Made by a program: the position numbers and the translations under genes
Part shown: one piece after another, positions 12,630-37,560 of the stretch
Position numbering within the stretch: the first letter of the stretch is position 1
Layout of the letters: every line of letters starts with the position of its first letter
Virus record (IMG/VR): IMGVR_UViG_3300046665_000459
Span: 1-39,147 of that record
Direction: 5' to 3' (one strand)
DNA from: a virus
DNA length: 39,147 bases
Notes under the pieces: generated by a model
The model's database searches: none
Told to the model about the DNA's origin: nothing
What the model saw: the letters and a program-made list of their open reading frames with translations, nothing else

Positions 12630-14660
12630 ATGACCACGTACGCCGACGGCACTAAGGTTTACCGCACCGGCTACTTTCGAGGATTGCGGCCGGAGCCTGA
12701 GCTTTGGGTTGACGAATGGGCCGATCGTTACATGCGTATCCCGCAAAGCCTCGGCGTCGCTGAACCAGGTCCCTATCGCACGGCACGTACGCCTTATGCC
12801 CGTGAGCCGATGCAATGTCTATCACCGGCGCATCCATGCAAGCGGGTGGTGACAATGATTGCTTCGCAGTTGATGAAGACGCAGATTGCTTTGAATTGGA
12901 TTGGCGGATGCATTCATATGGCGCCGGCGAACATTCTGTTGCTGGAACCGACGCAGAGCCTGGCACATGATATTGCCGCACGTTTTGATCAAGCCGCAGA
13001 GGTGGTTCCTGAATTACGCGAACGCATCGTTAAGCCACGATCAAGAAAAGGGACTAACACATCAAGAGTTAAACAGTTCGAGGGCGGACGGTTGTTCATC
13101 GCGACAGCCGGCTCATCTTCCAACCTCGCAGAAAAGTCTGTTCGCTACGTCTACGGGGACGAAATAGATCGTTGGGTAATGGATCTGAATAGCGAGGGTG
13201 ATCCGGTCAAGCTCGCAGAGGCACGCGCTTCCACCTTTGGGCGCAACGCCAAGTTCTATTTTTCAAGTACACCTACCCTCAAGGGCGTGTCGCGAATCGA
13301 TGATCTTTTTCGCATCAGTGATCAGCGTCATTTTTATGTGCCGTGCCCTCATTGCCAACACATGCAGGTGCTCGACTGGTCTCATCTGAAGTGGGACGAG
13401 GCGTACACCCAGGTTCACTACCTATGCAATGGACCTGATTGTGGCGCGCTGATTGATGAGCATGAAAAGGCCACGATGCTGGCGAAGGGAGAGTGGCGTG
13501 CCCACTCACATGGGGATGGCGAAACCATTGGCTTTCAGCTCAATGCCCTTTATGCACCTCTTGGATGGACCAGTTGGATCCTGTTAGCCCGCGAGTTCGA
13601 CTCAGCGATGAGCGAGCAGAAAAAGGGCAATCAGTCGCTCATGCAGGTGTTTTACAACACCAGGCTTGGTCTGCCTTGGGACAGCGCATTTGAACAGACC
13701 AAGGCTGGTGAGCTTCAAGCCAGAGCGCTGCTAGAAACTTACGTCCTCGGTACCGTGCCAATCGGCGCGCTGATGTTGACTGCCGCAGTGGACGTTCAAG
13801 GCAATCGTCTTGAGTTTATGGTTATGGGCTGGGGGGTGGGACTAGAGCGATGGGTAGTTGACCATCAGGTCATCATGGGCGACCCGTCTGACGACAGAAC
13901 ATGGGAGGCGTTGGATAACAAACTCAAGGTTCGCTACCGCCACCCCAGTGGAGTCGCACTGGGCATCCTTGCGACTGCGGTTGACTCGGGCGGCAACCAC
14001 ACCCATGAGGTTTATCAGTTTTGCCGTATTCGTCGTTGGCGAAATGTCTTTGCAGTGAAAGGCGAGAGCCGCCCGGGCAAGCCGGTCATTGCACAGCGTG
14101 CGTCCCGCGTGGATGTCAACTGGCGGGGTAACATTGAAAAGAACGGTGCTGAACTGTGGATGATCGGTACCGACACGGCAAAGGACTGGATCTACAACCG
14201 CTACGCATTGCCGTCTGGGCCGGGTGCTTTGCATTTTGCAAAGGATCTACCTGATGACTTCTTTGCTCAGTGTGTAGCGGAGCGCAAGGTGGCTCGCTTC
14301 GTTAAGGGTGAGTGGCGAGTTGTATGGACTAAGGGCAAGGCTGATCGTAACGAAGCACTCGATCTGATGGTATATGCGCTTGCAATGGCCGAATACCTTG
14401 GCTTGGGGCGTTATCACGAAAGTGACTGGGATCGGGTACGACAGTCGCTCATGCAGCATCATTTGTTTGAGGACAAATCTATTCCGGCTGATCCGGTAGT
14501 ACTTACTGCATCAACCGAAAAACTTGAGGCGTTGCCCATTGCGAAAACATCCTCAGCCACGCCTGCTACGGCTTCTGTCCTACCAGTTACTCCACGCCAC
14601 CAACCGATAGCTGCTCCTCCACGCCGCGTCAGTACAAGCGGTTACCTCAAGAGACGGTGA
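12630..14660 (+). CDS. Terminase large subunit (lambda GpA family)
   Basis: A 676-residue packaging motor and nuclease. The N-terminal ATPase has a divergent Walker A at about 79-85 (ASQLMKTQ), as usual for GpA, and Walker B VYGDEIDRW near 174-182. A zinc-like cluster CPHCQH, C-N-G-P-D-C lies at about 240-270. The nuclease domain begins near TAAVDVQGNRLEFMVMGWG (about 385) and includes ATAVDSGG; the conserved C-terminal ALDLMVYALAMAEYL follows. The last 50 residues are Pro/Ala/Ser-rich and variable. It works with the Nu1-like subunit at cos and docks on the portal encoded two genes later. Confidence 0.95.
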   Translation: MTTYADGTKVYRTGYFRGLRPEPELWVDEWADRYMRIPQSLGVAEPGPYRTARTPYAREPMQCLSPAHPCKRVVTMIASQLMKTQIALNWIGGCIHMAPANILLLEPTQSLAHDIAARFDQAAEVVPELRERIVKPRSRKGTNTSRVKQFEGGRLFIATAGSSSNLAEKSVRYVYGDEIDRWVMDLNSEGDPVKLAEARASTFGRNAKFYFSSTPTLKGVSRIDDLFRISDQRHFYVPCPHCQHMQVLDWSHLKWDEAYTQVHYLCNGPDCGALIDEHEKATMLAKGEWRAHSHGDGETIGFQLNALYAPLGWTSWILLAREFDSAMSEQKKGNQSLMQVFYNTRLGLPWDSAFEQTKAGELQARALLETYVLGTVPIGALMLTAAVDVQGNRLEFMVMGWGVGLERWVVDHQVIMGDPSDDRTWEALDNKLKVRYRHPSGVALGILATAVDSGGNHTHEVYQFCRIRRWRNVFAVKGESRPGKPVIAQRASRVDVNWRGNIEKNGAELWMIGTDTAKDWIYNRYALPSGPGALHFAKDLPDDFFAQCVAERKVARFVKGEWRVVWTKGKADRNEALDLMVYALAMAEYLGLGRYHESDWDRVRQSLMQHHLFEDKSIPADPVVLTASTEKLEALPIAKTSSATPATASVLPVTPRHQPIAAPPRRVSTSGYLKRR

Positions 14661-14661
14661 T

Positions 14662-14868
14662 ATGTCGTTTACCCCTAAGCACCTCGAAGCCATCGAGCGC
14701 GCCATCGCGCGCGGTGAAAAGACCGTGCGCTACAGCGATCGCACGGTGGAGTACCGCTCCATCGATGAACTGCTCAAGGCCCGCGATGAGATCCGCACCT
14801 CGCTAACCAACGCGGCCGGGCAACGCTCTCGCGTGATCCGGCTTACACACGGAGGCAAGGGAATCTAA
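14662..14868 (+). CDS. Head-tail joining protein gpW
   Basis: A 68-residue protein, the same length as lambda gpW, which plugs the portal after packaging and prepares it for the next connector protein. Two helices are visible: KHLEAIERAIARG and SIDELLKARDEIRTSL, with a short beta pair between (KTVRYSDRTVEYRS). It lies between terminase and portal exactly as in lambda, and its stop overlaps the portal ATG by one base. Confidence 0.85.
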   Translation: MSFTPKHLEAIERAIARGEKTVRYSDRTVEYRSIDELLKARDEIRTSLTNAAGQRSRVIRLTHGGKGI

Positions 14869-16349
14869 TGGCCCGAAAATATCCGACACTCACCCGTAAC
14901 GGATTCTTGCTGCCGTCAAACATCAAGGCCAGTTACGAAGGTGCCGGGGAGGGCCGTCGTTCGGCCAGTTGGGAAGCCACCGACAACGGCATCAACAGTA
15001 TCAACACCCCGGCGCTGCGAAATTTACGTGCCCGTTCGCGGGCGGCGGTGCGCAATGATCCCTACGCCTTTAACGTCATCGACAAACGCGTCAGCAACCT
15101 GATTGGCACTGGCATAACACCCAGGCCAATCACGGACGATGCTGAACTGCGTAAGTTGAAACAGCAGCTGTGGGATTACTGGGTGGACGAGGCCGACGCC
15201 GATGGACTTACCGACTTCTACGGTATGCAGGCCCTAGTGGCGCGCACCGTCGAAACAGCAGGCGAATGTTTTATACGGCTGCGACCTCGTAGCCCCAGCG
15301 AAGGCTTGGCAGTACCGCTGCAACTGCAGGCGCTCGCCCCTGAATTTGTCCCTCACGACAAGTTCGAGGCGGCCAAAAATGGCAACGTAATCCGCGCTGG
15401 CATTGAGTTCAGCCCGGCCGGCAAACGGGTGGCGTACTGGATGTACTTGTCTCACCCGCGCGATTCGTCGTCACTGAACGCTGGCTACAACCAGCTGGTG
15501 CGTGTGCCGGCGGCACAGGTGCTGCACATCTTCGAACCCATGGAGCCAGGACAGTTGCGCGGCGTACCGCGTTTGGCTCCGGTGCTAAAGCGGCTGCGCA
15601 GCTTGGACAATTACGACGACGCCGTGCTGTTCCGCCAGGAGGTGGCGAATCTGTTCGCCGGCTTCATCAAGCGACCTCCGCCGGATAGCGGGCAGCAACC
15701 ACGCGATCCGGTGACGGGCAAGTTGCTGACCACCGACAGTGATGGCTTCACACCGATGGTCGCCCTTGAGCCCGGCACCATTCAGGAACTGGCACCAGGA
15801 GAAGAGGTGGAGTTCTCTAAGCCACCGGACGCGGGCAACAACTACCCGGACTTCATGCGTCAGCAGCTAATGGCTGCAGCGGCGGGTTCTGGTACGCCCT
15901 ACGAGATCCTCACCGGCGACATGCGGGAGGTCAACGACCGGGCGCTGCGGGTGGTGCTCAACGAGTTCCGACGGCGCCTGGAGCAGCTGCAATTCGGCGT
16001 GTATGTCCATCAGCTGTGTCGCCCCGTGCGGGCGGCCTGGCTGGACATGGCGGTGCTGTCAGGCGCCCTGGTGCTGGAGGACTACGCGCAACGTCGGCGC
16101 GAATACCTGCGCACACGTTGGGTACCGCAAGGCTGGGCCTACATCCAGCCGGTGCAGGACGTGCAGGCGCGGCGCATGGAAGTGCAGGCGGGCTTTGCCT
16201 CGCGTAGCGAGATGGTGCTGCGTACCGGCTATGACGCGGAAACGGTCGACACGGAAAACGCAGCAGATCTCGTCAGGGCCACTGGCCTCGGCCTCAACTA
16301 CACGACTCTTGAAGCCATCGAGTTGATCGATGACAAGGAACTACCATGA
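14868..16349 (+). CDS. Portal protein (lambda family)
   Basis: A 493-residue portal of the lambda gpB family. It forms the ring at the capsid vertex through which DNA enters and to which the tail joins. Family features are a start rich in basic residues with LRARSRAAVRNDPYAFNVID, the stretch GTGITPRP, the central DGLTDFYGMQALVARTVETAGE, and LRGVPRLAPVLKRLRSLDNYDDAVL. The C-terminal part (GTPYEILTGDMREVNDRALR) is also typical. The stop overlaps the protease ATG, coupling the two. Confidence 0.94.
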   Translation: MARKYPTLTRNGFLLPSNIKASYEGAGEGRRSASWEATDNGINSINTPALRNLRARSRAAVRNDPYAFNVIDKRVSNLIGTGITPRPITDDAELRKLKQQLWDYWVDEADADGLTDFYGMQALVARTVETAGECFIRLRPRSPSEGLAVPLQLQALAPEFVPHDKFEAAKNGNVIRAGIEFSPAGKRVAYWMYLSHPRDSSSLNAGYNQLVRVPAAQVLHIFEPMEPGQLRGVPRLAPVLKRLRSLDNYDDAVLFRQEVANLFAGFIKRPPPDSGQQPRDPVTGKLLTTDSDGFTPMVALEPGTIQELAPGEEVEFSKPPDAGNNYPDFMRQQLMAAAAGSGTPYEILTGDMREVNDRALRVVLNEFRRRLEQLQFGVYVHQLCRPVRAAWLDMAVLSGALVLEDYAQRRREYLRTRWVPQGWAYIQPVQDVQARRMEVQAGFASRSEMVLRTGYDAETVDTENAADLVRATGLGLNYTTLEAIELIDDKELP

Positions 16350-17476
16350 GTAAAAAAACCAAACCCTGCGTCTATGACAAGGCCGGCAAGCAGGTAAATG
16401 TTGCCGACAAAAGCTGGTACACCTTCCAGGCAAGCGGCGAAGCCGAGCAACGCAGTATCGAGATCTTCGTATACGGCGAGATAGGCGCTTGGGGCGTTAC
16501 CGCCAATCAGTTCGTGCAGGATCTGCGCGCCATGGATGATGGTGCGTCCCCAGTGATTGTCGCGTTCAACAGCATCGGCGGTGATCTGTTCGATGGCCTG
16601 GCGATACACAACGCGTTGTCGCGATTGGGTGAACGCTGCACTGGTCGTATCGACGCTCTGGCGGCCAGCGCGGCCAGTGTCGCGGTGTGTGGCGCTCACA
16701 GGGTCGTGATCGCAGCCAACGCCATGCTGATGATCCATAACCCCTACACCTTTATCAGTGGCGATGCCAAAGACTTCCGCCGTGTCGCCGATGTGCTCGA
16801 TCAGACCCTGGAAGCAATCATTGCGGCCTACAAAGCCAAAGCACCGGACGTTGACGAAGCCGAGCTGCGGCGCATGGTCAACGCTGAAACTTGGCTCACC
16901 GCCAATGAAGCGGTGGCGCTGGGCCTAGCCGATGAAGTCGGCGATGGCATCAAGGTCAGTGCCTGTCTCGGCCAGGGGAGCGTGTTGCAGCGTTTCCAAA
17001 ATCCTCCCGCCGAGCTGCTCGCCCAGCTGGATGAAGAACCGGAAGCCGAACCACCTGAACCAGTTCCAGCCCCTGTGCTGGACGCGGCCAGGTTGGCGCT
17101 GATGGTTACACAAGGTTGTGCGGCAGCTGGCATCAGCAACCTGGTGGAACCCCTGCTGGCCGCCACCAAGCTCGAAAGCGAAGCGGTCATCCAGGCAGCA
17201 CTGATCAATGCAAAGGCGCTGCACGGCCTTTGTGTAGCCGCACGACTGCCAGAGCTAACCGGCGAGTTCATCAGCGCTGGCTTGGACGAAGCCGCCGTCA
17301 GGGCGCGTCTGTTCGACAAGCTGGTGGGTAGCGGCGGTGGCTTTGAAATCAACAACAGCCTGCCGCTGGACAGCGACCCAGTACCTACTGTGCAGGCAAA
17401 GCAAGTCGACACCCACGCAATCTGGACCAACCGACAGGCGGCTCAGAATGGATCCTCAAAAGGAGCAAGAGCATGA
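16346..17476 (+). CDS. ClpP-like capsid maturation protease with possible scaffold tail
   Basis: A 376-residue S14-family head protease. The N-terminal domain (about 35-205) shows the ClpP fold with NSIGGDLFDG, the nucleophile Ser108 in ALAASAAS and His131 in MLMIHNPYT, plus WLTANEAVALGLADEVG. The C-terminal 150 residues start with an acidic Pro/Glu stretch (EEPEAEPPEPVPAP) and continue helical; in lambda C/Nu3 this part can serve as scaffold. I did not find an obvious internal start for a separate scaffold protein. It is coupled to portal and decoration genes by ATGA overlaps. Confidence 0.93.
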   Translation: MSKKTKPCVYDKAGKQVNVADKSWYTFQASGEAEQRSIEIFVYGEIGAWGVTANQFVQDLRAMDDGASPVIVAFNSIGGDLFDGLAIHNALSRLGERCTGRIDALAASAASVAVCGAHRVVIAANAMLMIHNPYTFISGDAKDFRRVADVLDQTLEAIIAAYKAKAPDVDEAELRRMVNAETWLTANEAVALGLADEVGDGIKVSACLGQGSVLQRFQNPPAELLAQLDEEPEAEPPEPVPAPVLDAARLALMVTQGCAAAGISNLVEPLLAATKLESEAVIQAALINAKALHGLCVAARLPELTGEFISAGLDEAAVRARLFDKLVGSGGGFEINNSLPLDSDPVPTVQAKQVDTHAIWTNRQAAQNGSSKGARA

Positions 17477-17811
17477 AAACTGAATCGATGCACGCAGGCG
17501 AGTTTCTGCTATCCGAGGGTGCGGGCAACATTTCCCGCGAGGCGATCAACGTCGCCGCAGGTGTCGCCCTGGAACCAGGCCAGATCCTCGGCCTGGTCAC
17601 CCTTACCAGCGAGTTTGCCCCGTATCAGCCGACCGCCGAGGACGGCACTGAGAACGCCGTCGCGATTCTCTATGGGCCGGTGAGCGAGTCGGATGTTGTT
17701 CGACGCGGTCGTGCCATCGTGCGTCTTGCCGAGGTCAGTGAAGCGCACTTGACCGGCCTCGATCCTGCCGCCGAAAGGGCTCTGGCTACCCATTTTGTGA
17801 TCGTCCGCTAA
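17473..17811 (+). CDS. Head decoration protein (lambda gpD family)
   Basis: A 112-residue capsid-stabilising protein of the gpD type: the N-terminal GEFLLSEGAGNISREAINVAAG and PGQILGLVT match the family, with NAVAILYGPV and the closing loop toward ATHFVIVR. It would sit as trimers on the outside of the expanded capsid. It overlaps the protease stop and is followed by a terminator and the capsid gene, the lambda order. Confidence 0.9.
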   Translation: MKTESMHAGEFLLSEGAGNISREAINVAAGVALEPGQILGLVTLTSEFAPYQPTAEDGTENAVAILYGPVSESDVVRRGRAIVRLAEVSEAHLTGLDPAAERALATHFVIVR

Positions 17812-17831
17812 GACGCTCATTCTTTTTTCCC

Positions 17832-17854
17832 ATCCCGCCGAGTGCGGGATTTTT
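17832..17854 (+). terminator. Terminator or attenuator before the capsid gene
   Basis: The stem ATCCCGC / GCGGGAT has a 5-base loop and is followed by four more T, 20 bases before the capsid ATG. In a late operon it may work as an attenuator or RNA-stabilising end, since transcription must continue. Confidence 0.75.
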
Positions 17855-17873
17855 CGTTATTGGAGAGTAGCCC

Positions 17874-18869
17874 ATGGCCGATATCGGCATTTTTGAAGAC
17901 GATGCGTTCAGCGTCTCCTCGCTGACCGCTGCAATCAATGACCAGGAATACCTGCCTGGCCGCATTAGTAGCCTGGGATTGTTTCGCGAAGAGGGCATCA
18001 GCACTTTAACCGTACAAATCGAGAAAGACGGAGACACCCTGGCGCTGGTGCCGGCCGGTGAGCGCGGTACGTCGGGCCTGGTGGTCGGCGGTACCAAGCG
18101 TAAAATGATCCCGTTCAACACCGTACATCTGCCTCAACGCTTCACCATCAAAGCGGATGAAATTCAGGGTATCCGTGCTTTTGGTACACGCAGTGAGCTG
18201 CAGGCGGTTCAGGACGTGGTTAACAAGCGCCTGGCGAAGGCCCGCCGTCAGTTGGATGCCACCCACGAATTCCAACGTATGGGCGCGTTGAATGGTCAGG
18301 TACTGGATGCCGATGGCAGCACCGTACTGTTGGACATCTACAGAACCTTCGGTGTCCAGCGCAAGAAGCTACCGATGGGGTTGAACGATCCCGCGACTGA
18401 TCTGCGTGTTCGAGTCGGTGAGGCACTCGACATGCAAGAGGATGCATTGGGCAACATCACTAGCAGCGGCTCTCGGGCGCTCTGCGGGAAAAACTTCTGG
18501 AACAAATTGGTCGCTCACGATTCGGTCCAAAAAACCTACCTCAACTCCATTCAGGCTGCGGCCCTGCGCGGTGATGCGCGGGAGAGCTTCGAGTTCGGTG
18601 GGGTCGTCTGGGAGCGTTATCGTGGCAAGATCGCGGGCGTCACGTTCATCCACGATGACAAGGCACTGCTGATCCCCGAAGGCGTTCCGGACCTTTACAT
18701 CTCGTCGTTCGCACCAGCGGATTACATGGAAACGGTCAACACCCAAGGGATTCCGTACTACAGCAAGATTGAGCCGCTCCCCTTCAACAAGGGTGTCGCC
18801 GGTGAGGCCCAATCCAACCCGCTGCATATATGCACGCGGCCTCTGGCTCAGATCCTGCTGGAACTCTGA
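17874..18869 (+). CDS. Major capsid protein (lambda gpE family)
   Basis: A 331-residue capsid protein of the lambda gpE type. Visible family features are an N-terminal arm (FEDDAFSVSSLTAAINDQEYLPGRI), the strand GTKRKMIPFNTVHLPQ, the long helix around TRSELQAVQDVVNKRLAKARRQLD, and the C-terminal domain with SKIEPLPFNKGVAGEAQSNPLHICTRP. It forms the icosahedral shell with decoration protein and portal. Length agrees with lambda E (341 residues). Confidence 0.94.
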   Translation: MADIGIFEDDAFSVSSLTAAINDQEYLPGRISSLGLFREEGISTLTVQIEKDGDTLALVPAGERGTSGLVVGGTKRKMIPFNTVHLPQRFTIKADEIQGIRAFGTRSELQAVQDVVNKRLAKARRQLDATHEFQRMGALNGQVLDADGSTVLLDIYRTFGVQRKKLPMGLNDPATDLRVRVGEALDMQEDALGNITSSGSRALCGKNFWNKLVAHDSVQKTYLNSIQAAALRGDARESFEFGGVVWERYRGKIAGVTFIHDDKALLIPEGVPDLYISSFAPADYMETVNTQGIPYYSKIEPLPFNKGVAGEAQSNPLHICTRPLAQILLEL

Positions 18870-21294: not shown

Positions 21295-21621
21295 ATGATC
21301 GGAATGGACCGCCACACCGGCCAGCCCATTTCGGGCCTTGTGCATTTGCGACAGTGCATTGAAGACATTCTAAGCACCCCGCTGGGCAGCCGCCGACAGC
21401 GACCAGAATACGGCAGCAAGCTACGTCGATACGTGGATTTACCGGTCAACGAGGGCTGGAAAGGGGCTGTTCAGGCCGAGGCGAGCAGGGCGTTAGGCCG
21501 CTGGGAACCTCGCCTAAAGCTGGAGCGCTTGCAGGCCGTTTCTGTTCTGGGTGGGCTGATCAAGATCCAAGTCACCGGTCGTTTTCTGGGCGAGAGCGTA
21601 TTGCTGGAGGTAAGTGTATGA
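21295..21621 (+). CDS. Baseplate wedge protein W (gp25-like)
   Basis: A 108-residue baseplate protein of the GPW/gp25 family. The family signature is clear: HLRQCIEDILSTPLGSRRQRPEYGS, with the conserved E-Y-G-S and later LKLERLQAV and IKIQVTGRF. It links sheath and wedge in contractile machines. GGAG lies just upstream; the stop overlaps the next ATG. Confidence 0.93.
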   Translation: MIGMDRHTGQPISGLVHLRQCIEDILSTPLGSRRQRPEYGSKLRRYVDLPVNEGWKGAVQAEASRALGRWEPRLKLERLQAVSVLGGLIKIQVTGRFLGESVLLEVSV

Positions 21622-22499
21622 GTATCGTCGATCTGTCCGAGTTGCCAGCGCCGGACGTGCTTGAACCCCTGGACTTTGAAGAGGTGTACACCGAAATACT
21701 CGCTGTTTTCCGTAGCTTCATGGGCGACAACTGGAGTGCGCCGCTTGAGAGCGAGCCGGTGGTCAAACTGTTGGAGGCCGGCGCTTATGCGCGTATTGGT
21801 GATCGCGCCCGGGTAAACGATGCCGCCAAGGCACTGATGCTGGCCCATGCTATTCGTGGCGACCTCGATCATTTAGGGGCTAACGTTAATACCCCACGCC
21901 TAGTGATTCAAATGGAAGATCTTCGCGCAGTTCCTCCGCAGGAAAAGATCACTGAAAGCGATGACGCTTACCGCGAACGTATCCAGATGGCCTATGAGGG
22001 CCTGACTACAGCAGGGCCGCGTAACAGTTACAAGTTGCATGCGCGCAACGCCTCGGCCCTAGTGGCGGATGCGTCCGCCGAAAGCCCGTCTCCGGCGCGC
22101 GTTACGGTAACGGTGCTGGGGCTGGCCGGCGATGGGGCGGTAGGCCCTGAGTTGTTGGCGGTGGTAGCGAAAGCTGTCAACGACGAAAACGTTAGGCCCC
22201 TTGGTGATCGGGTGACAGTGCAAAGCGCCGAGGTGTTGCCGTACCGCGTCGACGCGGTGCTGTACATGAAAGGCCCGGGGCCTGAAAGCGCCGTAGCGAT
22301 GATAGAAGCAGAAAGGCGGCTCGCAGCCTGGATCAACCCCCGCAAACGTCTGGGCGTCGAGGTGGCGCGCTCCGCTGTCGATGCGCAGTTGCACGTCCCA
22401 GCCGTTTCACGAGTCGAACTGACCGGGTGGCAAGATCTGGCCCCTACAGAGGCGCAGGCGGCGTTCTGCACCGGGTACAGCGTAGTGCTGGGGGAGTGA
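21618..22499 (+). CDS. Baseplate protein J
   Basis: A 293-residue baseplate J protein (gp47-like), the main arm of the wedge. Typical are the N-terminal FEEVYTEILAVFRSFMGD, ARIGDRARVNDAAKALMLAHAIRGDLDHLGAN split over about 50-90, DDAYRERIQMAYEGLTTAGPRNSY, and the C-terminal GWQDLAPTEAQAA. It lies in the canonical W-J-I order. Confidence 0.94.
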   Translation: MSIVDLSELPAPDVLEPLDFEEVYTEILAVFRSFMGDNWSAPLESEPVVKLLEAGAYARIGDRARVNDAAKALMLAHAIRGDLDHLGANVNTPRLVIQMEDLRAVPPQEKITESDDAYRERIQMAYEGLTTAGPRNSYKLHARNASALVADASAESPSPARVTVTVLGLAGDGAVGPELLAVVAKAVNDENVRPLGDRVTVQSAEVLPYRVDAVLYMKGPGPESAVAMIEAERRLAAWINPRKRLGVEVARSAVDAQLHVPAVSRVELTGWQDLAPTEAQAAFCTGYSVVLGE

Positions 22500-22500
22500 C

Positions 22501-23106
22501 ATGAAAAGCCTTCTGCCGATCAATAGCACCCAGTTAGAGCGTGCGATTGAGGCTGCCAGCACGGATCAAACCGTGATTGCGCTCCGTTCGCTCTACAACC
22601 CCGTAACGTGCCCCGTTCATTTGCTGCCACATCTTGCCTGGGCCTGGTCTGTGGATCGTTGGGATGATCGCTGGACTGAAGCGACCAAGCGCCAAGCGGT
22701 AAGGGCGTCGTTCTATATCCATTCCCGCAAAGGAACTATTGGTGCATTGCGCCGTGTGGTCGAGCCGCTGGGTTACTTGATCGAGGTCATGGAGTGGTGG
22801 CAGAGCGTGCCAGAGGGGGTCCCGGGTACGTTCTCTCTGAAGGTCGGCGTGCTGGACGCCGGCATTACTGAAGAAATGTACGAAGAGTTGACCCGGCTCA
22901 TTGATGATGCCAAGCCCGTCAGTCGACACATGACCGGCTTAGCGATCAGCCTGGAAACTACCGGTTACATCGGCATGGGCGCCTGTGTAAGCGAGGGTGA
23001 GGTGATCGACGTTTACCCACCAACGCCCCGCGATATTGAGGTGACCGGTACTTATGGTCTGGTCATGTGTATTGATGAAGTTGACACCCTGGACGTGTAT
23101 CCATGA
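22501..23106 (+). CDS. Tail protein I
   Basis: A 201-residue P2 gpI-family baseplate protein that connects the wedge with the fibres. Family features: LLPINSTQLERAIEAAS, then LRSLYNPVTCPVHLLPHLAWAWSVD, WDDRWTEATKRQAVRASFYIH and KGTIGALRRVVEPLGY. The last 50 residues are a repeated-looking beta part (GMGACVSEGEVIDVYPP then GLVMCIDEVDTLDVYP). It starts one base past the J stop. Confidence 0.93.
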   Translation: MKSLLPINSTQLERAIEAASTDQTVIALRSLYNPVTCPVHLLPHLAWAWSVDRWDDRWTEATKRQAVRASFYIHSRKGTIGALRRVVEPLGYLIEVMEWWQSVPEGVPGTFSLKVGVLDAGITEEMYEELTRLIDDAKPVSRHMTGLAISLETTGYIGMGACVSEGEVIDVYPPTPRDIEVTGTYGLVMCIDEVDTLDVYP

Positions 23107-24125
23107 TTGATCAGAACAGTCAGTTTTTCGCCATTCTTACGGCAGTGGGTGAGGCTAAACAGGCAAATGCCACTGCCTTGGGCCAGCCCTGGACCTTTTC
23201 ACAGATGGGCGTGGGTGATGCCAACAACACAGATCCAATCCCCGACCACTCGCAAACGCGGCTGATCAACGAATGGCGCCGTGCAGCGGTTAATCAGGTC
23301 AGGACCGACCCGGAAAACCCGAACATCATCATCACCGAGCAGGTTATCCCGCCCGACGTGGGTGGTAAGTGGATTCGGGAAATCGGCTTGTACGATGCAG
23401 ACGGCGACCTGGTGGCGGTGGCCAATTGTGCCCCGAGCTTCAAGCCTTTGCTTGTACAGGGGACGGGAAAGACGCAAATCATTCGGATGAACTTCATCGT
23501 TGCGAATACATCGAGCGTCGTCCTGAAGATTGATCCGGCGATTGTCCTGGCGACCCGCGAATATGTGGACACGCAGATAATTGAAGCCATGGCAAAAATG
23601 GACTTCAAGCATTCGGTGTTGGTGGCCACCACGGCCAACATCGCCTTGAGCGGCGTGCAGACCATCGACGGCGTACTGTTGCCGGCGGATGCGCGCGTGC
23701 TGGTGAAAAATCAGACGGCCGCCAAGGAAAACGGCTTGTACGTGGTTTCTTCGGCCGGCGTGTGGAAACGTACCCAGGATGCAGACAGTAGCGTCGAGGT
23801 GACGTCGGGGTTATTTGTCAGTGTCGAAACCGGCACCCTCAACGGTGACAGCGTTTGGCAACTGGTCACGGATGCGCCGATTGTATTGGGTACTACAGCG
23901 CTGGTCTTTGAAATGGTCGTGGGCTGCACCGGTGTTAGCGCTGGCTCCTATGCCAATGTCACCGTCGATAGGTTCGGCCGGGTGATTGGCGGCACCAACC
24001 CGACCACGCTCGCAGGTCATGGCATTACCGATGCGTTTCCAGCTGATCGCCTCATTGTTTCGACTACTGCCCCGGCGGATACCGATGGGGTGGTCGGTAC
24101 TATCTGGCTGCAGGTGGAAACATGA
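23103..24125 (+). CDS. Tail fibre protein H
   Basis: A 340-residue fibre. Residues 1-155 match the conserved phage tail-collar/fibre N-domain (FFAILTAVGEAKQANATALG, WTFSQMGVGDAN, PDVGGKWIREIGLYDADGDLVAVAN) that docks on gpI. Residues 165-275 are a beta repeat domain (LSGVQTIDGVLLPADARVLV, KENGLYVVSSAGVWKRTQDA). The motif VTVDRFGRVIGGT is typical of fibre shafts. It is shorter than full P2 H fibres, and the receptor tip is apparently supplied by the next gene. Confidence 0.88.
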   Translation: MIDQNSQFFAILTAVGEAKQANATALGQPWTFSQMGVGDANNTDPIPDHSQTRLINEWRRAAVNQVRTDPENPNIIITEQVIPPDVGGKWIREIGLYDADGDLVAVANCAPSFKPLLVQGTGKTQIIRMNFIVANTSSVVLKIDPAIVLATREYVDTQIIEAMAKMDFKHSVLVATTANIALSGVQTIDGVLLPADARVLVKNQTAAKENGLYVVSSAGVWKRTQDADSSVEVTSGLFVSVETGTLNGDSVWQLVTDAPIVLGTTALVFEMVVGCTGVSAGSYANVTVDRFGRVIGGTNPTTLAGHGITDAFPADRLIVSTTAPADTDGVVGTIWLQVET

Positions 24126-24901
24126 ATTTTTACGCAAAGGCCGTCACAGGTTTCAAGGCCGGGATTTTGCCTCGCGCAAAGCTGGCAGATGGCTGGCGTG
24201 ATGGAGAAGTTCTATGGGTCAAGACCGCTTCGGGTTGGAAAGTGGCATGGCGACGCCGCATCGTTTACACGAATCTTGTGGACCTGGCAGATGCCAACAT
24301 CTTTGCCCTGATGGGATCGCCCGTGAAGCCTCGAGAGTACGTATTTATTAATAAAGCGGTGCTGCGTGGAGTGTCTGCTGCTGCGCTGCGAACGGGTGTT
24401 TTTCCTGCGGGGTCGAAGCTGTTGGTGATTAACGAGGGGTATATCAAGGGCGCCGGCGGCGCTGGAGGAACGGCCGCGGCGGGAATGCCAGGCAATCACG
24501 GTCTTTTGCTCGAGTTCGCAACAACCTTGGATAACTCTGCCGGATATATACACGGTGGAGGCGGTGGTGGTGGCTTGGGACAGCACCGAACTTTTAGATC
24601 GGATGGTTCCGCCAAAACCGGTTATGGCGGTGCTGGCGGCGCTGGCGAGGGCGTTGGAGCTGCAAGGCCTGGGGCAGCGGGGCAAGCAATATCGGATGAC
24701 GGATCCGGCGGCACTGGAGGTGCCGGTGCAGCCGCCGGCATTGCTGGTTCGCCAGGCAGTGTCGGGTGGTCAAACACTACTTATGCCACTTATGGGCCGT
24801 GGCCCGGTGGTGCTCCAGGTGCCGCGATTATTTCGGGGGGCCATGCCTTCACTTTCTCGGCTGGTAATTCTTCTGATCGTATTAAGGGGGCTGTGTCTTG
24901 A
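24122..24901 (+). CDS. Glycine-rich tail-tip adhesin (gp38-like)
   Basis: A 259-residue protein coupled to the fibre gene by ATGA. Residues 1-100 probably attach to the fibre (KAVTGFKAGILPRAKLADGW, VLWVKTASGWKVAWRRR). From about 112 it has several polyglycine stretches: GAGGAGGTAAAG, GGGGGGGLG, GYGGAGGAGEG, GSGGTGGAGAAAG, GPWPGGAPGAA. These alternate with short variable segments (HRTFRSDGSAKT, SNTTYATY). This recalls the T-even gp38 adhesin, where glycine-rich type II helices form a sandwich exposing variable recognition loops. It probably decides host receptor choice. The structural claim is by analogy. Confidence 0.65.
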   Translation: MNFYAKAVTGFKAGILPRAKLADGWRDGEVLWVKTASGWKVAWRRRIVYTNLVDLADANIFALMGSPVKPREYVFINKAVLRGVSAAALRTGVFPAGSKLLVINEGYIKGAGGAGGTAAAGMPGNHGLLLEFATTLDNSAGYIHGGGGGGGLGQHRTFRSDGSAKTGYGGAGGAGEGVGAARPGAAGQAISDDGSGGTGGAGAAAGIAGSPGSVGWSNTTYATYGPWPGGAPGAAIISGGHAFTFSAGNSSDRIKGAVS

Positions 24902-25356
24902 GTGACTTTGCAATTGTTTCGATCTCCCCGGAAGTTGGGACGATGGTTATTAACTGGGGGACGGTAACCCTAAACCATTTTATTCCTTCCGATTTAGCTG
25001 GAGCTGACAGCCTTTCGGCTGCGCAGATCGAGGAGCGAATCGAGGCGATGCGTCCTACGGTGCCCGAACCCGTGAGGGTTCCGGCAGCTCTGGCGGCCAT
25101 GGTTCAATCTGTAGCAATCGATCCTGATGTGCGTGAGCGTGTTTGGCGTGACCGGTGTATATCACCGCTGATCGAGTCTCGAGATCGTCACCGCGACGAG
25201 GTTGAGCTCGGCATGCTTACGACACTCACGGCCTCGCAGTTCGCCGAACTGCTGGCTCACATCCAAAAACTGCGTGAGTGGCCCCAGTCACCGGACTTTC
25301 CGGATAGCGAGCGTCGCCCCGTAGCGCCGGCCTGGATCAACAATCAAACCGAATAA
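24898..25356 (+). CDS. Tail fibre assembly/chaperone-like protein
   Basis: A 152-residue protein started at TTG 24898, which overlaps the adhesin stop (TTGA) and has AAGGGGG 6 bases upstream. The end (SQFAELLAHIQKLREWPQSPDFPDSERRPVAPAW) matches the usual C-terminus of phage tail assembly chaperones (L-x-x-Y/W-R-x-x-L/W...P). A mid segment RDRCISPLIESRDRHRDEVELG is also typical. It probably helps fold or load the adhesin. Confidence 0.75.
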   Translation: MSDFAIVSISPEVGTMVINWGTVTLNHFIPSDLAGADSLSAAQIEERIEAMRPTVPEPVRVPAALAAMVQSVAIDPDVRERVWRDRCISPLIESRDRHRDEVELGMLTTLTASQFAELLAHIQKLREWPQSPDFPDSERRPVAPAWINNQTE

Positions 25357-25384
25357 CGCCTCACTCCGATGGGGCGTTTTCTTT
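25355..25384 (+). terminator. Terminator after the fibre cassette
   Basis: AACGCC pairs with GGCGTT over a 12-base loop and is followed by a T-rich stretch; the stem begins inside the stop codon of the chaperone gene. Confidence 0.6.
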
Positions 25385-25416
25385 TCCGTAATGTGTAACA
25401 ACGAACACTCTTCACG

Positions 25417-25439
25417 GCCTCGCATATGCGGGGCTTTTT
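25417..25439 (+). terminator. Second terminator before the sheath gene
   Basis: GCCTCGCA and TGCGGGGC form an eight-pair stem with one G-T pair and almost no loop, followed by five T, 20 bases before the sheath ATG. Two terminators in tandem separate the fibre and sheath blocks. Confidence 0.7.
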
Positions 25440-25458
25440 CGTTTCTGGAGATTGCCCT

Positions 25459-26622
25459 ATGAGTTTCTTTCACGGTGTGACCGTCACCAACGTAAACACC
25501 GGTGCGCGCATCATTTCGCTGCCCTCGTCCTCAATCATCGGTCTATGTGACACCTTCACCCCAGGACCGAACGTGACGGCCAATCCGAACCAGGTGCTAC
25601 TGATCACGCGCGAAAGCGAGGCGGTGGCTGCCTGGGGTGAAGACGCAGCTATCACCAAATCCATCAAGGCGATCTACATGCGCGCCAAAGCGGTGATCGT
25701 GGCGTGCGGTGTCGAGAAGCTGGCCACGCCAGCGTTGCAAGCCTCGGCTGTCATTGGCGGCGTCCTGGCTGACGGCCAGCGTACCGGCATGCAGGCGCTG
25801 TTGGATGGTAAGAGCCGATTCAACGCCCAACCCCGGTTGCTGATCACCCCAGGTCATAGCGCGACCCAGGAGGTGGCTACGTCGCTCGATGCGCTCGCCG
25901 GCAAGTTGCGCGGTATCGCCATCGTCGACGGCCCAAACACCACCGACGAAGCCGCCATTGCCTACGTCGAGAACTTCGGCAGCAAGCGCGTGTTTATGGT
26001 CGACCCGGGCGTGCAGACCTGGGACACCGTTCTCAGCGAATCCGTTGATGCGCCGGCCTCGGCCTGGGTGGCGGGTCTGTTTGCCTGGACCGATAACGAA
26101 TATGGCTTCTGGGCCTCGCCGTCGAACAAGGAGTTTGTCGGCATCACCGGTACCACGCGTCCGATTGAGTTTTTGGACGGCGACGCAACGTGCCGAGCCA
26201 ACCTGCTCAACAACGCGAACATCACCACGATTATCCGTGACGACGGCTACCGCCTATGGGGCAACCGTACCTGTTCCAGTGATCCGAAGTGGGCCTTTGT
26301 CACACGCGTACGCACCCAAGACATCGTCATGGACGCGATCCTTTACGGGCACAAGTGGGCGGTCGACCGCTCGATCACCAAGACCTACGTCAGCGACGTG
26401 ACCGAAGGCCTGGAAAACTTCATGCGCGACCTGAAGAAGCAGGGCGCGGTGATCAACTTCGAAGTGTTCCCGGACGACGAGCTGAACACGCCAAGTCAGT
26501 TGGAACAGGGCAAGGTCTTTTGGCGCATTCGTTTCACCGACGTGCCACCGGCTGAAAACCCTACATTCCTCGTTGAAGTCACTAATCAGTGGATCACCGA
26601 AGTCATCGAAAACAAGGCTTAA
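25459..26622 (+). CDS. Tail sheath protein (P2 FI family)
   Basis: A 387-residue contractile sheath. The start MSFFHGVTVTNVNTGARII is typical. It contains the inner conserved domain with AYVENFGSKRVFMVDPGVQ, SPSNKEFVGITG and GYRLWGNRTCSSDPKWAFVTRVR, and the C-terminal FEVFPDDELNTPSQLEQGKVFW. It shortens on infection and drives the tube through the envelope. The ATG follows GGAG by 7 bases. Confidence 0.95.
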   Translation: MSFFHGVTVTNVNTGARIISLPSSSIIGLCDTFTPGPNVTANPNQVLLITRESEAVAAWGEDAAITKSIKAIYMRAKAVIVACGVEKLATPALQASAVIGGVLADGQRTGMQALLDGKSRFNAQPRLLITPGHSATQEVATSLDALAGKLRGIAIVDGPNTTDEAAIAYVENFGSKRVFMVDPGVQTWDTVLSESVDAPASAWVAGLFAWTDNEYGFWASPSNKEFVGITGTTRPIEFLDGDATCRANLLNNANITTIIRDDGYRLWGNRTCSSDPKWAFVTRVRTQDIVMDAILYGHKWAVDRSITKTYVSDVTEGLENFMRDLKKQGAVINFEVFPDDELNTPSQLEQGKVFWRIRFTDVPPAENPTFLVEVTNQWITEVIENKA

Positions 26623-33608: not shown

Positions 33609-34403
33609 ATGTCCACACCCATCATTCCCTGGATGGGCGGCAAACGCCGCCTGGCCGACCGCCTTATCCCGCTCTTCCCACCCCACGAATGCTACGTCGA
33701 AGTCTTTGCCGGCGGCGCCGCGCTCTACTTCATGCGCCCCCAGGCCGCGCCGGTTGAAGTCCTCAACGACATCAACGGCGACCTGGTGACGCTGTACCGC
33801 GTCGTGCAGAACCACCTGGAAGAATTCGTGCGCCAGTTCAAGTGGGCGCTCAGCTCGCGCCAGGTGTTCGAGTGGCAGAAGATGACCCGCCCCGAAACCC
33901 TCACCGACATCCAGCGCGCCGCGCGATTTTTCTATCTGCAGCATCATGCCTTCGCCGGCAAGGTGACCGGGCAAACGTTCGGTACCGCCACCACCGGCCC
34001 GGCCATCAACCTGCTGCGGATTGAGGAGAACCTCTCTGCAGCATGGCAGCGTCTGTCCGGCACCTACGTTGAAAACCTGCCCTGGCTGGACTGCGCTGAG
34101 CGCTACGACCGTCCCCATACCTTCCATTACATGGATCCGCCTTACTGGCAGACGGCCGGTTATGGCGTGGATTTCCCCTTTGAAAACTACGAGCGCATGG
34201 CCGACTTCATGCGACGGTGTAAAGGCAAGGTGATGGTCAGTATCAACGATCATCCCGATATCCGGCGGGTGTTTGAAGGCTTTCACGTTGAGATGGTGGA
34301 TATCCGATACAGCACGGCTAACCAACGACAGGGAAAAGCGAAAATGAGCGGCGAGCTGGTGATTATGAACTGGGAGCCAACTGCGTTGGGAGGATTGTTC
34401 TGA
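33609..34403 (+). CDS. DNA adenine methylase (D12 class)
   Basis: A 264-residue N6-adenine methylase. Motifs visible: PWMGGKRRLADRL near 7-19, EVFAGGAALYF (31-41) for AdoMet binding, and DPPYW at 176-180 for catalysis, with MVSINDHPDI following. It lies after the lysis genes as cargo; 149 bases with a small AGGATG-N6-CATCCT hairpin (33475-33492) separate it from Rz. It may shield phage DNA from host restriction or alter gene expression. The target sequence cannot be read off. No paired nuclease is seen. Confidence 0.92.
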   Translation: MSTPIIPWMGGKRRLADRLIPLFPPHECYVEVFAGGAALYFMRPQAAPVEVLNDINGDLVTLYRVVQNHLEEFVRQFKWALSSRQVFEWQKMTRPETLTDIQRAARFFYLQHHAFAGKVTGQTFGTATTGPAINLLRIEENLSAAWQRLSGTYVENLPWLDCAERYDRPHTFHYMDPPYWQTAGYGVDFPFENYERMADFMRRCKGKVMVSINDHPDIRRVFEGFHVEMVDIRYSTANQRQGKAKMSGELVIMNWEPTALGGLF

Positions 34404-35864: not shown

Positions 35865-36290
35865 ATGAGCTTTACCATTTTAGGTCCCATCGCTGAAGTC
35901 GGCGCGAAGCTGCCTTTGTGCTCGTTCCGGGTTCCGGCCGGCTTCCCGTCGCCGGCAGCGGATCACATCGAGCAGCACATCTCGCTGGATGAGGTTTTGA
36001 AAATCCGTGCGCCTCATGTGTACCTGGTAGCTATCACTGGTGAAAGCATGCAAGGCGTAGGAATCTTCGATGGAGACCTCGCCGTGGTGGATCGCGCCAT
36101 TGAGCCTATCCACGGGCATGTGGTGGTGGCATTGCTCAACAATGAGCCCGTTTGCAAGCGCCTATGTAAGCGCGGTCAGGAGGTGGTACTGCTTTCCGAG
36201 AACCCCAAATTTCCTGCGCGCTACGTACTCGAAGGCGACGAGCTGTCGATCTGGGGCGTGATCACTAGTACAGTGCGTAGCCATGTCTAA
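35865..36290 (+). CDS. umuD: UmuD/RulA-like error-prone repair protein
   Basis: A 141-residue S24 protein that becomes active UmuD' after RecA-driven self-cleavage. The cleavage site is probably A25-G26 in RVPAGFPSP, with Ser61 in ITGESMQG and Lys98 in PVCKRL as dyad. UmuD' joins UmuC to form polymerase V. It follows an SOS box and overlaps umuC by 8 bases. The length equals E. coli UmuD (139). Plasmid/prophage-borne rulAB in Pseudomonas has the same layout. Confidence 0.93.
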
Positions 36291-37560
36291 GCAGCAGCCC
36301 ACCTTCGCACTGATCGACTGCAACAGCTTCTATGCCAGCTGCGAGCGGGTATTCCGGCCCGACCTTGCGAAGGTGCCCATCGTCGTGCTTAGCAACAACG
36401 ATGGCTGTGTCATCGCCCGTAGCTACGACGCCAAACCTTTCATCAAGATGGGCGAACCGTATTTCCAGATCAAGCACAAGCTCAAGCAGCACGGGATTGT
36501 CCCGTTCTCCTCGAACTATGCGCTGTACGGCGACATGAGCGAGCGTGTGATGAGCCTGATCGAAGCGATGGTGCCTGCAGTTGAGGTATACAGCATTGAC
36601 GAAGCGTTTGCTGATCTGACTGGCATCGGCGGGCTGGATGCCTTAGGCCGGCAGATTCGTGCCCAGGTGCTTCGCTGCACCGGCATCCCTGTCGGTGTTG
36701 GTATAGCGCACACAAAGACTCTGGCGAAGCTGGCAAACCACACTGCGAAGCGCCTGCAGTCCCAAACCGGTGGGGTGGTCAACATCACCGACCCGGTTAA
36801 GCGTGACTGGGTGCTACGCAATACGGACGTGGCGGAGGTATGGGGTGTCGGTCGCAAGATGAAACTCTATCTTGATGCCATGGGCATTAAGTCGGCTATG
36901 GACCTGGCTAAGGCCGATCCGTGGATGCTCCGCAAGAAGTTCAGCGTTGTGATCGAGAAGACGGCCAGGGAGCTGGGCGGCACGCCTTGCCTGGAGCTGG
37001 ATGAGCCGGATCCGCCAAAGCAGGAGATCTGCTGCAGCCGCATGTTCGGCATGAGGCTGACGGAGCTGCCGCCCATCAAAGAGGCGGTGGCTACCTACAT
37101 GATGCGTGCCTCTGAGAAACTCCGTGCTCAAAACTCGCTGTGTAAGAAGGTACGCGTGTGCATCCGCACTGGCATGTTCAACCCAGAGGAGGCGAAGTAT
37201 GCCAATGGGGTGGTGGTGGATATGCCGTATCCCACTGATGACGTCCGGCTGCTAACGCAGGCAGCAGTGGGGGCGCTTGATCGGATATTTAGGCCTGGCT
37301 TCAAGTACAGCAAGGCAGAGGTGATGTTGCTCAACCTGTGTCAGCCAGGTGAGTATACCGACGACCTATTTGCAGTGTCGCAGCCGACTAAGGCAACTCG
37401 GGCAATGACGGTGCTGGACCAGATTAACCAACGATGGGGTAGGGGGACCTTACGATCAGGTAGTGTCCCATCTACTCCAGCTTGGGGGATGCGTCGCGAG
37501 CTCATGAGTCGAAGTTACACGACAAAGCTCGATCAGCTTTGGTCAGTAGCCTGCAAGTAA
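36283..37560 (+). CDS. umuC: UmuC/RulB-like Y-family DNA polymerase
   Basis: A 425-residue translesion polymerase subunit. Catalytic motifs: [19 protein letters not shown] near 9-27 and [10 protein letters not shown] with SIDE at 104-107; also [20 protein letters not shown] and [20 protein letters not shown]. The length is complete compared with E. coli UmuC (422). Many integrative elements split rulB; here it is intact. It is the last gene that can be linked to the prophage with confidence. Confidence 0.95.

Follow-up and report, generated by a model that had tools for sequence, protein, structure and literature searches.

A probable polyglycine adhesin of the gp38 type, with another kind of plug, in Pseudomonas phages and a putative tailocin locus

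The question raised by this locus is what a glycine-rich protein encoded beside a P2-type tail fibre could do, and how it could be held on that fibre. The window analysed here is the complete 39,147-base virus record IMGVR_UViG_3300046665_000459. Its head genes are of the lambda type (GpA terminase, portal, ClpP-type protease, decoration protein D and capsid E), and its tail is of the contractile P2 type (J, I, H-type fibre and sheath), so that lambda-type head and packaging genes (12630-18869) and a P2-type contractile tail (21618-26622) are united in one phage. The gene order in the tail region is I, fibre, glycine-rich protein, chaperone-like gene and sheath, with an overlap of four bases at the fibre/glycine-rich and glycine-rich/chaperone-like junctions. 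An earlier note made from the sequence alone had read a short H fibre, a glycine-rich protein and a chaperone-like gene in this order, and its layout is confirmed (Table 1). It had also taken the glycine-rich protein for a gp38-type adhesin. Adhesins of this type belong to a small group of phage receptor binders in which a few loops, carried by a rigid framework, account for specificity.

Table 1. Features of the fibre, adhesin and chaperone genes in the window
Feature	Position	Strand	Basis
Short tail fibre (P2 gpH-type), 340 aa	23103..24125	+	PF12571 Phage_tail_fib 2.5e-53, residues 6-152
Fibre last 35 residues, proposed adhesin docking surface	24018..24122	+	conserved end; docking putative
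gp38-like polyglycine adhesin, 259 aa	24122..24901	+	fold match 6f45_D, 9v85; hhalign 95.7%
Adhesin N-terminal docking domain, residues 1-45	24122..24256	+	period-14 self-similarity; strands in two low-confidence models
Beta-helix scaffold, first part, residues 46-109	24257..24448	+	10-residue-block mean pLDDT 77-90; aligned to S16 gp38
Glycine-rich motifs and variable segments, residues 110-229	24449..24808	+	T-even gp38 profile match; sandwich and receptor loops putative
Closing beta-helix strands, residues 230-259	24809..24898	+	block pLDDT 78-83; aligned to last residue of 6f45_D
Chaperone-like gene, 152 aa, TTG start	24898..25356	+	phrog_188 tail fibre assembly 3.7e-17; PF16778 0.0022, below cut-off
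Chaperone N-terminal domain, residues 1-65	24898..25092	+	found only beside the adhesin in genomes searched

Judged by its substitution pattern, 24122-24901 is a real gene, since its pN/pS against four relatives (L003, L004, L005 and L008) is 0.22-0.26, which corresponds to purifying selection. A second open frame that overlaps the glycine region (24555-24905) was discarded as a by-product of composition, because stops break up the alternative frames in each of the five sequences compared. Glycine makes up 56 of the 259 residues of the adhesin, and 44 of these are in residues 110-240. The longest glycine run has 7 residues, a length reached when the protein is shuffled in 64 cases out of 20,000, and GG pairs are no more frequent than composition predicts (7,451 of 20,000 shuffles have as many). 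Hence, it is the glycine composition of the adhesin that is unusual, not glycine pairing. The pattern of glycine runs separated by variable segments, noticed beforehand in the single protein, holds across 14 aligned rows, where 9 of the 25 glycines in residues 151-229 are invariant versus 0 of the 54 other residues. These rows, full-length sequences obtained by scanning viral contigs and genomes, form the alignment A4. Some of them depend on each other, as L018 and L026 are nearly identical and the adhesins of L020 and L027 look the same on inspection by eye; L031, which repeats L026, was left out.

A structure model of the window adhesin was built with AlphaFold2 from an alignment of 11 rows. 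Residues 40-150 and 230-259 were mostly well predicted, and residues 1-28 and 151-229 were below a pLDDT of 50, with 151-229 near 25. A second model, with the homologue L029 as first sequence, was worse (mean pLDDT 42). When the adhesin model was compared by Foldseek with 350,542 PDB chains, the only confident matches were 9v85_C (prob 1.00) and 6f45_D (prob 0.89), both of them gp38 adhesins, with an E-value of only 0.012 for the best match. VIA-align gave a Z of 13.6 for 6f45_D (rmsd 2.3 over 133 residues) and 13.1 for 9v85, and the chain ranked next after this gp38 pair was pertactin (Z 8.7). Moreover, gp38-labelled proteins were among the better matches of the model in a viral model library.

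The comparison of profiles points in the same direction. The 14 family rows were matched by hhalign to 7 T-even gp38 rows over columns 104-235 (prob 95.7, score 63.1), with the glycine-rich motifs following the gp38 order at profile level, and this score was not reached by any of 100 whole-column shuffles (maximum 23.8) or 100 glycine-region shuffles (maximum 32.9). In Pfam, the cut-off of the GP38 family (PF05268, 25 bits) was exceeded by L029 (29.9) and not by L025 (24.0) or by the window protein alone (9.6), and the tailocin-type copies had no GP38 match (L026 at E 1 and L021 at 0.1). When 398 Pseudomonas genomes were scanned with PF05268, no match came out, even in the four adhesin carriers, and because these known carriers were missed, the scan is uninformative on absence. 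The search of PDB chain sequences with the window protein and a 7-row profile returned no gp38 either; the kinship emerged solely from the fold, from the comparison of one profile with another and from Pfam scans of relatives.

These results bear on a simpler explanation, namely that the protein is merely a spacer, glycine-rich, collagen-like or of low complexity and with no defined receptor fold, and its matches are artefacts of composition. Glycine-rich sequences do yield misleading matches, and the GG pairs follow composition as described above; nevertheless, the profile score is beyond all shuffles that keep the composition of the glycine region, most of the fold match comes from the beta-helix, which is the better-modelled part, and the gene is under purifying selection, which makes a spacer hardly credible. 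The predicted fold, the shuffle-controlled profile match and one homologue over the Pfam cut-off support instead a T-even gp38 fold for the receptor half. The identification as a gp38-type adhesin is therefore upheld for the receptor half (fold, profile, and Pfam for L029) and abandoned for the N-terminal docking part, which is not gp38-like. As the gp38 docking domain is absent, the protein was classed as sharing the gp38 receptor module and not as a T-even gp38.

In S16 gp38, as outlined in PMC6851490, two excursions of the beta-helix form ten polyglycine II helices, which are joined by hypervariable segments, and loops of this kind were crosslinked to OmpC in PP01 gp38 according to the outline in PMC12892980. 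A polyglycine II sandwich of residues 110-229 is likely in the window adhesin, since the sequence layout is the same as in the solved gp38 adhesins; the lattice itself is a prediction from the sequence. Divergence between lineages is greatest in the segments between the glycine motifs, previously proposed as likely host-range determinants to be compared among relatives: against 8 divergent relatives, identity is 21-30% in window residues 151-229, versus 40-63% in the other four segments. Close relatives share 77-85% full-length identity with the window adhesin and show no sign of positive selection in residues 151-229 (pN/pS 0.25-0.30). Because these residues are under purifying selection within the close group, their divergence looks like exchange or old divergence and not like ongoing diversification.

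Regarding the N-terminal part, residues 4-45 are composed of three 14-residue units, with K6/K20/K34, G10/G24/G38 and F11/W25/W39. Self-similarity, calculated with 8 of the 14 rows, is 1.25 at offset 14 and below zero at all other offsets from 7 to 21; none of 5000 column shuffles comes up to this value anywhere between offsets 8 and 20, and another test gave 0 of 2000. The period of 14 is absent in the neighbouring beta-helix. The idea that the T-even gp38 N-terminus could have this period as well was ruled out, as it is absent there, and the N-terminal parts of both proteins do not match (hhalign 0.2%). The docking domain had no match above chance among Pfam and PHROG families. In 398 genomes, its search at E 0.01 retrieved 13 genomes, corresponding to the four adhesins and nine weak matches, with no second use of the plug. 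The nine weak matches were judged from their context to be due to chance, and six of them look like one housekeeping gene, presumably recG. The models of the window protein and of L029 both put strands at the 14-residue units with low confidence, and the three repeats are probably three beta-hairpins.

The partner of this domain could be the end of the fibre. All the fibres compared (10 of 10) end in GT[I/L]WLQ[V/Y]E, and the adhesin comes directly after the fibre in every one of these 10 loci, a comparison that left out L003, L004 and L005. The N-terminus of the tailocin-type L026 fibre is only 10-16% identical to the N-termini of the phage fibres, yet it has this conserved end. The fibre of a P. 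viridiflava relative (L008 3649-5004) has 451 aa versus 340 in the window, with an extra shaft block and the tip end kept. In T-even gp38, three Trp-bearing helices fill three pockets of the gp37 trimer (outlined in PMC6851490), and by analogy we infer a comparable one-on-three fit of the hairpins onto the last 35 residues of the fibre. The adhesin might instead dock as a trimer, and the repeats might serve otherwise, for example as a beta-prism stem. Most fibre-tip parts are trimers, and the low confidence of the modelled repeat domain leaves room for such an arrangement. On the other hand, S16 gp38 is a single chain on the gp37 trimer (outlined in PMC6851490), and three internal repeats that each bring an aromatic residue suit one chain on three equal sites, so that trimeric docking seems rather unlikely.

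The gene that follows the adhesin encodes a chaperone-like protein whose C-terminal half matches tail fibre assembly proteins (phrog_188, PF16778). The N-terminal 65 residues were found in 4 of 398 Pseudomonas genomes, which are exactly the adhesin carriers, and adjoin the adhesin each time. This co-occurrence supports a dedicated chaperone role without proving it, since neighbouring genes may simply travel together; the adhesin probably has its own chaperone. In L025 the N-terminal part of the chaperone is kept and the C-terminal half is different, and in L030 there is no chaperone ORF after the adhesin.

A protein with the gp38 fold could also be a transient cap or chaperone of the fibre that leaves before the particle is completed. 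T4 gp38, which is unrelated, acts in this transient way and leaves before particle completion. The position of the adhesin gene between the fibre and an assembly-type gene would suit this role, and fibres with transient-chaperone-cap properties are known in other phages, as reported in outline in PMC10579305. However, a separate chaperone-like gene already follows the adhesin in 9 of the 10 loci compared, the solved relatives are described as fibre-tip adhesins (outlines of PMC12892980 and PMC6851490), and the divergence is concentrated in the predicted loop region. We consider a transient cap very improbable.

Concerning its distribution, the adhesin is carried by 4 of 398 genomes sampled from the genus of G001, a P. 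viridiflava genome, and G001 was the only match among 369 genomes drawn from the class. Searches by tblastn found nothing in 50,697 phage records with the window protein, the L029 homologue and the L026 docking domain, or in 72,556 plasmids with the L026 adhesin, bearing in mind that low-complexity filtering weakens the searches in the glycine part and less so in the first 110 residues. Between the window and L027/L028, the fibre N-terminus is 87% identical and adhesin residues 151-229 only 21-22%. Between L026 and L027/L028, the identities are 15-16% for the fibre N-terminus, 71-74% for the fibre end and 67-82% for the adhesin segments. This mismatch places a breakpoint inside the fibre. On this evidence, the cassette that is exchanged comprises the fibre end, the adhesin and the chaperone. 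Relatives of it are present in further Pseudomonas prophages.

A cassette of the L026 type is located in genome G308 (relative L018/L021/L032) between MutS and CinA/RecA, and the mutS-cinA/recA interval is a known hotspot of Pseudomonas R-tailocins, as outlined in PMC7815802. The genes of this locus encode MutS, an S24 repressor, holin, tail terminator, sheath, tube, baseplate, a second fibre set, spanin, CinA and RecA. No capsid or packaging gene was recognised among the 20 ORFs scanned there between MutS and CinA, which are a part of all its ORFs. The only non-fibre protein with a head-gene label is L032:16056, and this portal label (phrog_209, 16056-16640) looks wrong, given a Pfam tail terminator match of 1.9e-29. 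The fibre of the locus also matches decoration-type PHROGs, as does the window fibre. Taken on its gene content, the G308 locus would make a working tailocin. Between its sheath and tube genes, an ORF matching phrog_18458, a family of unknown function, is inserted (L032 18415-18999).

We regard it as very probable that 24122-24901 encodes a putative tip adhesin that works like T2/S16 gp38, with plug, chaperone and cassette. The computed parts of this explanation are the predicted fold of the scaffold, the profile kinship, the three-fold repeat, the glycine-segment divergence and the cassette exchange. We infer the lattice, the docking, the chaperone role, the tip location and receptor binding. 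The C-terminal part would fold as a beta-helix whose glycine-rich excursions form the polyglycine II sandwich, and the segments joining the glycine helices would be the loops that contact an outer-membrane receptor. The N-terminal 45 residues would form three beta-hairpins with one aromatic each (F11, W25 and W39), by which one adhesin chain could dock on the three-fold fibre tip with its conserved GT-I/L-WLQ end. The product of the next gene would be the dedicated folding or assembly chaperone of the adhesin, and fibre end, adhesin and chaperone may be swapped as one cassette between contractile tails.

The T-even gp38 proteins (S16 6F45, PP01 9V85, PF05268) are similar in size to the window adhesin and share with it a gene directly after the fibre, the beta-helix scaffold, the order of the glycine motifs, including a long glycine run, and divergent segments between the motifs. 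In contrast, the docking domain of the window protein consists of three 14-residue repeats unrelated in sequence to the three Trp-bearing helices, the adhesin is found beside a P2-type short fibre, and it is followed by a chaperone-like gene, whereas T-even gp38 is followed by a holin in 7 of 7 records examined. The haloarchaeal hafunaviruses also have a glycine-rich, T-even-like tail adhesin followed by a small gene, and their host range follows the adhesin, but they are archaeal myoviruses and are likened here by description, not by sequence (outline in PMC8651126). R-tailocins are found at the Pseudomonas mutS-cinA/recA site, where L018/L021/L032 is located with tail, baseplate and lysis genes; their description in PMC7815802 mentions tail fibres and chaperones and no polyglycine adhesin, and the window differs from them in being a phage with head genes. 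Glycine-rich tail proteins have been suggested in a Brevibacillus tailocin (outline in PMC9406221). In the library searched, no title or abstract opening reported an adhesin of the gp38 type on a P2-type phage or a tailocin of Pseudomonas.

The presence of the gp38 receptor module beside P2-type fibres and in a tailocin locus, with another plug and a chaperone, suggests that receptor module and plug are separable. There is about an even chance that this is a second, independent one-chain cap for a three-fold fibre, in which a triple beta-hairpin plug would replace the gp38 triple helix, keep the same polyglycine receptor module and move with a dedicated chaperone as a cassette between Pseudomonas temperate phages and R-tailocins. 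Some Pseudomonas tailocins could owe a share of their specificity to the adhesin, and the system offers a small case for the structural study of symmetry matching between fibre and adhesin.

Klebsiella phage Metamorpho has a gp38 of 177 aa (L049 1501-2034) whose similarity to S16 gp38 is confined to residues 1-45, which suggests a T-even docking domain with another receptor part. In the rest of the window, a D12-class adenine methyltransferase (33609-34403) and, near the end of the record, a UmuC-like Y-family polymerase with DUF4113 (36283-37560) were also found.
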